64,000 bases of DNA from Alkalicoccobacillus plakortidis (GTDB lineage Bacteria; Bacillota; Bacilli; Bacillales; Bacillaceae_D). The position numbers and the translations under genes are program-made. The stretch covers positions 1,612,001-1,676,000 of the forward strand of contig NZ_JAMQJY010000001.1 of the NCBI RefSeq assembly GCF_023703085.1. The letters are read 5' to 3'. Positions 7,867-63,367 of this stretch are shown in pieces; the first letter of the stretch is position 1; each line of letters opens with the position of its first letter. The notes beneath the pieces were generated by a model. That model worked only from the letters and a program-made list of their open reading frames with translations. It ran no database searches and had not been told where the DNA came from.

Positions 7867-10000
7867 CTATTTCATCGGCATTACTAAATTCACATAAACG
7901 GATGTTACATTATCAGGGAGATTTGCAATCAAGCCACTCGCACTTAGAATTCCATTGTCTCTAACTACGATTTTCCGATCGCCTGTTGTTCCAGCTACAG
8001 CACAATTAACCCACCAATTAAATTCAGGCGCCAGCTCACTTGGTATTCTTGCAAAGTCAACTGGATCGCCTTTAGGAATATCAACTCGACCTTTCATGAA
8101 AAGTAATCCTGCCTGAGAAGCATACATCAACGGATCATTAACGGGACTGTTACGAGTTCCATTAATTAATGTTGATCGTCTCCACACTTTTCGTCCACTT
8201 GTCATGATCTCCACGAAGTCACCTGGATCACCCACGGCAGGAACCACACGTATATAAATCACAACATCTCGATTTGCACTATTCCTCCATAACACCTGCC
8301 TGACTGATCCTGGCTTATCTGATGGCAGGACATCCATATACCAACCAAGCGTCACCCGGACTAGGATGATCTCTTAAACGGAAAGTATCATCCGTCGTCA
8401 TATAATAGTTGTCAGGAATTTTGATATCACTTAAACGTGTGACGGACGGGTAAAGGTATTCACACTCTCCACCTTTGAAATGAATCTCCCATTTACTTGA
8501 TGCAGTTGATTTATTTAAAATCCGTGAGAATACTCTTACTTTTCTAGTGAGTGTGCTCCTTGTTAAATATTGCGGAACAGTCCCCACTCTGTCACCTGGC
8601 AAAACGTCTAAAAACCACCCTGCGTTACCCGGATCTGGATGGTCCGTTAAACGTAAGGAATCATCGATAGAAAGATAATAATGACCAGGCTTCGTTATTT
8701 CAGCTAAACTTTTAGCGTTTGCAGGTATGTTTTTGCGCGAACCATCTGATTTAGTCATTGCGTATAGCTGAGGGTTACTCAATATATACTGCATTAACTT
8801 ATTTATTGACCCTCTCTGTCCATACGAATACACTTTGTGGCGACGTCTTCCCATACCGCCTACTGTAATACCAGCTAGTAATGCTCTTTGTTTCGTTACT
8901 GGATCAGTATAAAAAAAGACTCCCTCAGGTTCTCGGAAGTCGTCTATAAATTTTCCATTGTTTTCTGCTCCAAATGTATGAAGTTTGCGAGCGACTTCCT
9001 GTCCTGTTTTAAAATCATACTGAGCTAAATATGGTTGATGCGGCGTTCCGTTGGCTGATCCACTGTACCAGTACATGTCATATCCATCCGAAGTGACACC
9101 TTGCATAAAATCAATATCAGAAGAAACGATTACTTCTCCCAACAAGTTGTCAACGCCCTCTTTGATGTCCGATAACTTACGTAATTCCACTACTTGTCTG
9201 CCATTCCTTGAATAACGTAAGGTAATAAACCCATAAGCAGGATCTATTGTTGGTGTAGTATAAACAGAGTTAAACTTCTTGAACCGTTCAATACCTGATA
9301 TAGATCCAATACCTGTATTCGGTTTATAAGGAAAACGGACTAACTCATTGCTGATTACACGGTTGTTACCATCTACAATATTGAGGTTAGACCAGACATA
9401 CAGTACATCATCTTCCCACTCAAGACCCACTGTAGTGCCATGACCACCATCTTTTATGATCATATAATCGATAAGCTCACCGTTAGGAGTCATCTGGCTC
9501 AACACATAATGCTCATTGTTGCCGCTTGTAGTGGAATGCACCTGAGTCGCAAATAGATTCTCTGTTCTCTCGTCAATTCCAAACCACTGCATAACAGATG
9601 CTGACATAGGAACCAATTCAGCGAAGAAGTAAGGCTCGTATTTAAACAAGTCAAATTCATGTTCAATGTCATCGAGCACACCCAATGTTTGATTAGTTAC
9701 AATGAGCTCATTTTCATTATCATCCGCGCGTTCTCCCATGGTTCCGAAACTCTTACCAGTTGTGCGAGAAACATGATAATCTTTAATCTCTGTGATATCG
9801 GTAGCGTTAGCGATCTGCTCTTTATACTTTTTATCAAGGACCTCTTGCTGAAATTGCGTGTCTTTACTCAGCTTTTCGGTTTCATCAGCTAACTTTGCCG
9901 TTTCTTCCATACCATCAGCAATAGAATCTCTAACATATCGAGCTTTTTCTTCACCACGCACCGAATTAGCCAATTTTTGAATTACGTTTTTTATAGGCAT
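7867..10000 (-). CDS. Receptor-binding protein with beta-propeller and pyocin-knob repeats; one-base frame break at 8345-8350
   Basis: Reading through one extra base, the product is about 710 residues. After a helical N-terminus, residues about 130-400 look like the P68 receptor-binding/TagC-like beta-propeller (blades include NGELIDYMIIKDGGHGTTVG and GVTSDGYDMYWYSG). Two pyocin-knob-like repeats follow (HYYLSIDDSLRLTDHPDPG; YYMTTDDTFRLRDHPSPG), then a beta-rich end. In the second repeat the frame breaks: GACGCTTGGTTGG should read GACGCTGGTTGG to give AGWYMDVLP, as in the sister repeats. The given sequence therefore shows two frames (8315-10000 and 7867-8355). This is one of fifteen breaks at GCTGG. 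It likely binds wall teichoic acid or another surface glycopolymer. Confidence 0.8.
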
Positions 10001-11562
10001 TAGCTTCCTCCCTCTAATCTAGACAATCTGAGAAGTACATCATCTAAATTCACTAATTGTGTGGCAGTAATCTTGTTCAATTTTTCTTTATCAACCGAAT
10101 CAAAAAGCCCGCTAACCAATTCGGTTGCGAGCTCATAATTCTTTAATCCATCTAGTTTTTGTTTATCGGCAGCAGTCATTAACCCTGTATTTGTTGATGT
10201 AGCTGGTTGGTAATCAGGTAGGTCACCAAGAGACTCATTCAACTCATCAAGAGCAGCGTTTAAATCTTTGACAGCTTGATCAAGACCAGGCAGATCATTG
10301 TCTTCTAGTGTGATCTTGATAATAGATACTGTTTCATTTACTCCATCAACTTCCGATCTTAAAATTCCGATTGTCCTAGCTTGTCTGTGTATGGTGTTCT
10401 GCAAATCCACAACTGTTCTGGCTGATCGATTTACATCATTTTGATATTGAGAAGCTGTTTTGAACAGATCACCGACAATCATATTATTATTGGCTGGGTT
10501 GATAATATCGATATTCTTTTCCACAACTCTCAGGGTTTCATTTATGGCCATGATTGGATTAATGACAGGATAACTGTTTCCGCACTCAAAGCTGTCAGGA
10601 TCTTTGCCGATGTTGTATAAATCCAACGCCTCAATAACATGTTTGACTTTCACTCTATTGTTTTCAGCCAGATAGTTGCGTCCAGTTCTAATCAAGTTGG
10701 CAGGTATTGTGATATCATCCCAATTGACGCTTTTTGTTATAATGCCAAAAGCTGCCCTTGCTTGATCGTCCTCAATATAATCCAATCCGTTATTAACTGA
10801 TTCAATCGTTAACCTTGCTTGGCTTGCGTCAACAGCCTGTTCATCTTCTGACTCAATTGTGACTCCAAGAGGAATGAGACGTGTAATGATCTCATTCGGA
10901 TCAGCTTCTTTTTCAATGGACTTAAGATTGTGAGCCAATCTAATTTCAGTCTTTTTTACATCTCCACCTTTTTCAAGGTAGTCCAGATACCTGACTCCAT
11001 TTTCTTTCCGAATCCACAGCTCCCCACCTAACCGATCTATGAGCTTGTCGTTGATAGACGCCCATGTAGACTCATATCCAAGGTAGCGATACACATTGTC
11101 TGTATTATTCACTACAGTGACGTTACCAAGAACAAAACGCTTATCAATATTGTCATTGGCTATTTCTCTGTTGTGTTGGTCAATCATATGCTGTAGAAAG
11201 GCTCTGATTGTGATGTCCCTAAATTCGCCATGACGCTGTGCTGAATCGTTGAGATAAGCAAGCTCTCCTTCACATAACAAGGACTTGCCGAACTTGCCTG
11301 AGTCGTCCATGTACTCACTGGGCACCCTTGCCCTTCCTTCAAACTCCATCTTTCCTGTTTTCATGTTCTTCACTTCAACCAAAGTTTTAAATGGTCTGAT
11401 CAAATTATAACCAGGGTTAAACGGGAGAAACTTAAAGGAAAAGGTAGATGCTAGATTTACAACCTGTTTGATCGTACCCTCTTGTAGTTTCAATTCATTA
11501 AATTCAGGATGATGTATCTCTGTTCTCTTGCCATCATTAATGATTGTGACTTTATACATCAA
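10000..11562 (-). CDS. Prophage tail endopeptidase / tail-associated lysin (Tal)
   Basis: The 520-residue protein matches the phage minor structural/prophage tail endopeptidase family at the tail tip. Family-like segments are FKFLPFNPGYNLIRPFKT, STWASINDKLIDRLGGEL and DPNEIITRLIPLG. The C-terminal third is a predicted coiled coil (TVVDLQNTIHRQARTIGIL) followed by repeats around LMTAADKQKLDGLKN, typical of the fibre attachment region. Start and stop overlap its neighbours by one to four bases, as in the rest of the tail operon. It should form the baseplate hub with Dit and carry the receptor-binding protein. Confidence 0.8.
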   Translation of the reverse strand: MMYKVTIINDGKRTEIHHPEFNELKLQEGTIKQVVNLASTFSFKFLPFNPGYNLIRPFKTLVEVKNMKTGKMEFEGRARVPSEYMDDSGKFGKSLLCEGELAYLNDSAQRHGEFRDITIRAFLQHMIDQHNREIANDNIDKRFVLGNVTVVNNTDNVYRYLGYESTWASINDKLIDRLGGELWIRKENGVRYLDYLEKGGDVKKTEIRLAHNLKSIEKEADPNEIITRLIPLGVTIESEDEQAVDASQARLTIESVNNGLDYIEDDQARAAFGIITKSVNWDDITIPANLIRTGRNYLAENNRVKVKHVIEALDLYNIGKDPDSFECGNSYPVINPIMAINETLRVVEKNIDIINPANNNMIVGDLFKTASQYQNDVNRSARTVVDLQNTIHRQARTIGILRSEVDGVNETVSIIKITLEDNDLPGLDQAVKDLNAALDELNESLGDLPDYQPATSTNTGLMTAADKQKLDGLKNYELATELVSGLFDSVDKEKLNKITATQLVNLDDVLLRLSRLEGGS

Positions 11563-62613: not shown

Positions 62614-63367
62614 TTTACCGCCTCCAGAAGCTCAAGGAATGAAGCTGGCTCAAGACTTGCTCCTCCAACTAAAGCTCCATCTATATCAGTTTGTGCCATG
62701 TATTCAGCGATATTAGCTTGGTTTTACACTTCCACCGTATTGGATACGTACTGCATCAGATACTTCATGTGAAAACGCTTCTGCTACAACGGTACGGATA
62801 TAGCCGCAGCCTTCGTTTGCATCTTCAGAAGATGAAGATTTACCTGTTCCAATTGCCCAAACTGGCTCATAAGCGATCACTGTCTTTTTAACTTGTTCAT
62901 CAGTTAATCCAGCAAGACCTTTTGTAATCTGTTCTTGAAGAACGTCATTTGTACGGTTTGCTTCTTTTTCTTCTAACGTCTCACCGCAGCAAAGAATTGG
63001 AATAAGACCTTGTTCGTGAGCAGCATGTACCTTTTTGTTAATAAGGTCATCTGTTTCAGCAAACAATTCTCTGCGTTCAGAGTGACCAAGTACTACATAT
63101 TCAACCTTTAGGTCAGCAAGTGCTGCCTGGGCTTGTTTCACCAGTAAAAGCTCCACTTGTTTCAAAATAAGCGTTTTGAGCTCCTACTTTTAAGTCTGTA
63201 CCTGCTGTAGCTTCAACCAAACTTTGAAGGAAGATGGAAGGAGCACACACAACTGAATCAACGGACTCTGAGCTCGGTAGCTTCGTTTTAACTTCTTCAG
63301 CAAATGACTTTGCTTCTGAAAGTGTTTTGTTCATTTTCCAGTTACCTGCAATAATAGGTTTACGCAT
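62610..63367 (-). CDS. tpiA: Triose-phosphate isomerase; two one-base frame breaks at 62716 and 63125
   Basis: TpiA interconverts dihydroxyacetone phosphate and glyceraldehyde 3-phosphate. Corrected, the 251-residue protein has [43 protein letters not shown] (catalytic histidine), [15 protein letters not shown] (catalytic glutamate) and [16 protein letters not shown]. Breaks: at 63125 the plus strand reads GCTGCCTGGG, where GCTGCTGGG or GCTGCCGGG would fit; at 62716 it reads TTAGCTTGGTTT, where TTAGCTGGTTT fits. The corrected end overlaps gpmI in ATGA style. Confidence 0.93.

Follow-up and report, generated by a model that had tools for sequence, protein, structure and literature searches.

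One-base frame breaks at GCTGG/CCAGC in an Alkalicoccobacillus plakortidis assembly are very probably consensus errors, most likely at a modified motif

The window considered here is a stretch of 64,000 nucleotides from Alkalicoccobacillus plakortidis (contig NZ_JAMQJY010000001.1, positions 1,612,001 to 1,676,000), part of a 4.37 Mb assembly in nine contigs (GCF_023703085.1, here G000). It contains a prophage-like region and adjoining host genes, and in both the reading frames are repeatedly broken by a single base at one pentamer, GCTGG or its complement CCAGC. These breaks are very probably consensus errors in an assembly of long-read type, caused most likely by a modified cytosine that a tandem pair of methyltransferases would write. 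A preliminary description had listed 15 such sites, and all of them read as it said: 13 carry GCTTGG/CCAAGC, 63125 carries GCCTGG and 58361 a shortened form of the motif. As frame breaks, 13 of the 15 could be supported.

The seven listed host sites are all supported, each being a one-base difference from both of the relatives used for comparison. These are G001, the genome of an Alkalicoccobacillus murimartini locus that shares 95% identity with G000 in the rnr product, and G008, a genome of the same genus in one contig. Three GCTTGG insertions fall in a single glycoside hydrolase gene, at 49633..49638 (minus strand), at 49759..49764 (plus strand, the motif in opposite orientation) and at 51570..51575 (minus strand); the piece at 49728-51563 matches PF02449 and PF00150, and the G001 counterpart of the gene is an uninterrupted open reading frame (ORF) of 1081 codons. 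The gpmI gene has a GCTTGG insertion at 62443..62448 (minus strand), and its two pieces, in different frames, match positions 1-54 and then 54-504 of TIGR01307. The tpiA gene is broken twice, by GCTTGG at 62716..62721 and by GCCTGG at 63125..63130 (both plus strand), and its pieces in two frames match positions 3-81 and then 82-214 of NF000722. In secG the shortened motif at 58361..58366 (minus strand) leaves the gene one base short, and the match to the SecG profile, slightly below the family cut-off, stops at position 25 of 70.

Six of the eight listed prophage sites are likewise supported. Four lie in the tape measure gene, all GCTTGG on the minus strand: the pieces flanking 12876..12881, 13660..13665 and 14189..14194 match phrog_167 in order, and those flanking 14976..14981 match tape measure profiles in order. 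The fifth site (GCTTGG, 21555..21560, minus strand) lies near the end of the portal gene: Bacillus phage SDFMU_Pfc has an intact portal protein, which aligns in one frame to 22630-21557 and in a second to 21558-21487. The sixth, GCTTGG at 8345..8350 (minus strand) in a minor tail protein gene, is supported less cleanly, in that phrog_287 is matched by both pieces (8315-10000 and 7867-8355) but their matches run over one another within the profile. Partial support was obtained for GCTTGG at 21311..21316 (plus strand) in a head maturation protease ORF; the protease match starts just downstream of it, and the upstream piece matched neither a profile nor a related phage protein. GCTTGG at 39816..39821 (minus strand) lies in a small early ORF and would be a break there; searches with the piece found nothing in Pfam, in PHROG or in the phage collection. 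One further GCTTGG, absent from the earlier list, lies at 35715..35720 (minus strand) in a prophage cytosine-5 methyltransferase gene, where a PF00145 match ends at 35716. Pieces in three frames between 35443 and 36264 match DNA methyltransferase profiles, and this interrupted gene may contain more false breaks. A tmRNA gene at 42441-42800, a possible integration site, separates the prophage-like region from rnr.

The excess of the lengthened motif is already visible in the window, which has 38 copies of GCTTGG against 23.7 (sd 4.6) in 100 shuffled sequences, none of which reached 38, and 53 copies of GCTGG against 69.5 (sd 9.0), with at least 53 in 99 of the 100 shuffles. Across G000 as a whole there are 3178 copies of GCTTGG, or 728 per Mb, the highest density among the 20 genomes searched; four genomes of the same genus have 507-544 per Mb (from rounded genome sizes), and for the reversed control pattern G000 is unremarkable (252 per Mb vs 233-284). 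GCCTGG occurs 769 times, or 176 per Mb, vs 169-201 per Mb elsewhere, and since it shows no genome-wide excess this form of the error must be rare.

A count of GCTGG and GCTTGG in genes across the genome had been proposed in the preliminary description, and both these whole-genome counts and alignments to the relatives show insertions concentrating at the motif well beyond the window. For the alignments, 380 kb adjoining the window was compared with 400 kb each of G001 and G008; in all, about 530 kb of G000 besides the window entered the analysis. Alignments shorter than 400 bases or below 75% identity were dropped, as were indels longer than one base, those with another gap within 12 columns and those with fewer than seven of ten identical flank bases (fewer than six of ten in some counts, namely of hit and intact sites and of flanks). 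Over 213 kb aligned to G001, 45 of 65 isolated one-base coding insertions are at the motif (40 as GCTTGG, five as GCCTGG), a number that becomes 44 under a slightly different motif window; the filters excluded five messier one-base insertions at the motif, two of them coding. The control comparison of G001 with G008 (120 kb) gave no motif insertion among 12 and no motif deletion among eight, and insertions outside the motif in G000 are near that control level (20 in 213 kb vs 12 in 120 kb). When all pentamers are ranked with reverse complements joined, GCTGG/CCAGC comes first, with insertions at 28 of 365 sites; the median rate across pentamers is 0.36%. Two figures, an excess of GCTTGG of about 195 per Mb above the mean of the genus and the coding rate of 45 in 213 kb, lead to an estimate of some 850 to 950 false insertions in the assembly.

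There is strong reason to regard these insertions as errors, given the genes in which they fall and the disagreement among rRNA copies of one genome at GCTGG. Relative to G008, breaks at the motif are found in secY, rplE, rplX, rpsG, rpsL (two sites), rpsI, rplK and ispD (two sites); in a region of 60 kb around ribosomal protein genes, some 49 kb aligned to G008 (with thresholds of 500 bases and 78% identity) and contained eleven motif insertions, including one at L169:7083 without annotation. The motif also breaks clpP, ftsX, galU and hisD, as it does gpmI and tpiA. The ribosomal protein genes, secY, ispD, gpmI and tpiA are essential. In 16S and 23S, the seven rRNA copies lying off contig ends have nine copy-specific indel positions. 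Eight fall in motif columns, which, taken as the motif plus one column on each side, account for 2.2% of the rRNA, and the remaining one is an A missing from the extreme start of 16S. Two of the ten copy-specific substitutions also fall in the motif, both being G to T changes near position 53 of 16S, where a third copy carries an extra base and the other four are intact. The same comparison in G008, of three other operons with its first, found indels at two positions, both outside the motif, and seven substitutions, one of them within it. That the breaks are consensus errors is, on these observations, close to proven.

An eighth rRNA copy, at the end of contig C8 (L160, G000:C8:63300-68387), has indels at 50 positions and substitutions at 56. 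Its changes are not tied to the motif and resemble unpolished long-read sequence, and the copy would fit thinly covered sequence of that type.

A real process that targets insertions to this motif, on chromosome and prophage alike, would account for the very strong motif specificity. It would, however, have had to break essential genes, with two breaks each in rpsL and tpiA, and to change rRNA copies at conserved positions; moreover, 45 coding hits in 213 kb, or about 210 per Mb, would be lethal. The preliminary description had argued against such a process from the glycolysis genes. A genuine insertion process is to be regarded as highly improbable.

Real extra bases might instead be bypassed by ribosomal frameshifting or removed by RNA editing, which would reconcile true insertions with viable essential genes. 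The distribution of hits leaves this reading with a still smaller probability, one that approaches the negligible. Pooling G001 and G008 and demanding an ORF of 150 codons in the relative, 45 GCTGG sites are hit and 228 intact (about 16% hit, 45 of 273), the hits being in sense orientation to the gene in 26 cases and in antisense in 19. Two different RNA words would therefore be needed, where programmed frameshifting uses one sense-strand signal, and the earlier claim that hits in both orientations exclude ribosomal recoding holds. The rRNA, too, is hit, and inconsistently among its copies, and 152 aligned sites read GCTTGG or GCCTGG without any insertion relative to the relative. An effect at the level of codons was ruled out in the same way, as both orientations have hits and only one of the six orientation and phase classes has none, a class with just five intact sites.

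A longer recognition sequence was also considered and rejected: with the G001 and G008 alignments pooled (234.5 kb), a comparison of the 12 bases to either side of 53 hit and 263 intact sites showed no flank position to be required. There are weak tendencies, A being favored and C avoided after the motif, and C favored at -2. By the base that follows the motif, the hit rate is 1/48 for C, 23/103 for A, 6/25 for G and 15/97 for T. One 16S copy nonetheless has its extra base at a GCTGGC site, despite the near sparing of GCTGGC in the aligned stretches.

If consensus error at GCTGG is accepted, a cause can be sought among the DNA methyltransferases of the strain, the identification of which the preliminary description had proposed. 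PF00145 has four matches in G000: a tandem pair of cytosine-5 methyltransferases (L151:9245-10489 and 10500-11666), a gene at L152:8836-9897 and the prophage gene. On the same strand as the pair, and beside it, lies an HNH_2 ORF (L151:11974-13107), which scores under the cut-off of the sole NCBIfam model it matched; the three together (L151:9245-13107) lie close to rlmH. PF00145 was not found in G001, G002 or G008, and its one match in G006 is not homologous to the first gene of the pair at E 1e-120; at the same threshold neither G006, G007 nor G008 yielded that first gene. Of 397 genomes in the order, 12 have a close match to it, G000 being one of them, and the pair is kept together in eight of the 11 other loci, with one more cut by the locus end. 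A homologue search with one of the methyltransferases returned general names only among the best 120 of 8000 scored. Two adjacent cytosine-5 methyltransferases would be apt for an asymmetric site in which each strand has cytosines, as in type IIS systems. The tandem pair is the likely writer of a mark at GCTGG.

The mechanism proposed is as follows. A cytosine in GCTGG/CCAGC would be modified by the tandem cytosine-5 methyltransferases encoded beside the HNH nuclease gene, an arrangement that would suit the asymmetric site. The modified base would then disturb base calling, mostly giving an extra T (GCTTGG) and sometimes an extra C (GCCTGG), a lost G or a T in place of G. Single reads would err often enough that the consensus goes wrong at about one site in six, and not in the same way where copies are identical; such copy-to-copy differences are what is expected when the per-read error lies near the consensus threshold.

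A precedent for the modified motif comes from a study of 12 Listeria monocytogenes strains sequenced by nanopore R9.4 (PMC10687267), the one relevant paper found in a search of the literature on CCAGC or GCTGG with methylation. According to that report, the modification loci of strain R20-0026 (ST1081) were all centered on GCTGG, and its mismatches fell from 5670 to 16 after whole-genome amplification; the text consulted names no enzyme responsible. Together with a methyltransferase pair that was not found in four relatives of the same genus, this precedent makes it likely that modification of GCTGG causes the errors here. The preliminary description had arrived at the same view, consensus error at a chemically modified motif, to which the rRNA copies and essential genes now lend support as to error, and the precedent and the methyltransferases as to modification.

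Several observations weigh against this account. Plain five-letter methylation is insufficient to explain why the hit rate varies from 9% to 35% among the codon phase classes with hits, nor does it account for the near-protection afforded by a following C. Isolated coding deletions occur at about twice the control level (32 in 213 kb vs eight in 120 kb), and four of the 32 are at a shortened motif, the motif thus leaving most of them unexplained. The authors of the Listeria study state that indels were not the source of error there, whereas insertions dominate in G000, and the sequencing platform of G000 has itself been inferred. The L152 and prophage cytosine-5 methyltransferases are other possible writers, and although no PF01555 methyltransferase was found in G000, families beyond PF00145 and PF01555 were not searched. 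Finally, carriers of methyltransferase homologues (G130 and G207, with a first gene at best 76% identical) have no clear excess of GCTTGG (340 per Mb in G130 vs 323 in a congener; 530 vs 486 per Mb for G207), a comparison whose weight would depend on the platforms on which they were sequenced.

The consensus error at GCTGG might instead be independent of DNA modification, arising for instance from a bias of the base caller or polisher. The errors are established without any appeal to modification, and an influence of the flanks, as of C after the motif, is something that model bias would also give. A general bias should nevertheless recur in other genomes from the same platform, the four same-genus genomes lack the excess, and in the published case the errors at this same pentamer are reported to have disappeared once the DNA had been demodified (PMC10687267). 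Error without modification is accordingly an improbable explanation, if a less remote one than real insertion, and consensus error at a modified GCTGG/CCAGC is preferred.

The frame breaks are therefore not to be taken as biology, being an artefact of the assembly. With so many false insertions, no reliance can be placed on its pseudogene calls, on genes that seem to be missing or on the apparent decay of its prophage. A quick test for this kind of error, one that requires no reads, is to look for a single word at which the rRNA copies within a genome disagree. The errors also suggest a word that the methyltransferases of the strain may recognize, and as a hint to a recognition site they are of modest interest. 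A more specific proposal, which we advance tentatively and hold to be slightly more doubtful than credible, is that the strain marks GCTGG/CCAGC with a modification for which base callers are untrained, written by the conserved tandem methyltransferases as part of a candidate restriction-modification unit with the neighboring HNH nuclease, and possibly the same kind of mark as in Listeria ST1081. If this were true, the assembly errors would be an accidental read-out of the recognition site.

Three kinds of known system may be set beside these observations. Programmed ribosomal frameshifting, which relies on one shift signal on the sense strand, is a poor likeness, as the hits are on both strands and extend to the rRNA. 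Type IIS-like restriction-modification units, which place two methyltransferases and a nuclease gene side by side, resemble what is seen at L151, where two adjacent PF00145 genes and an HNH_2 ORF lie on one strand; this likeness is known from the genes themselves, the recognition site and activity of the candidate unit being predicted and the HNH ORF falling below its NCBIfam cut-off. The closest parallel is with modification-mediated errors in long reads. As in such cases, the changes in G000 lie at one short motif on both strands, are spread over the genome whatever the function of the gene, are called differently in near-identical copies, and occur in a strain with a methyltransferase that was not found in clean relatives. 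Listeria R20-0026, as described in the report, shares with G000 the pentamer GCTGG/CCAGC itself, motif-bound errors that survive polishing and a suspected lineage-specific modification; it differs in showing mismatches, in R9.4 data and with a cure by amplification, where G000 has mainly one-base insertions and a platform that we infer (PMC10687267).

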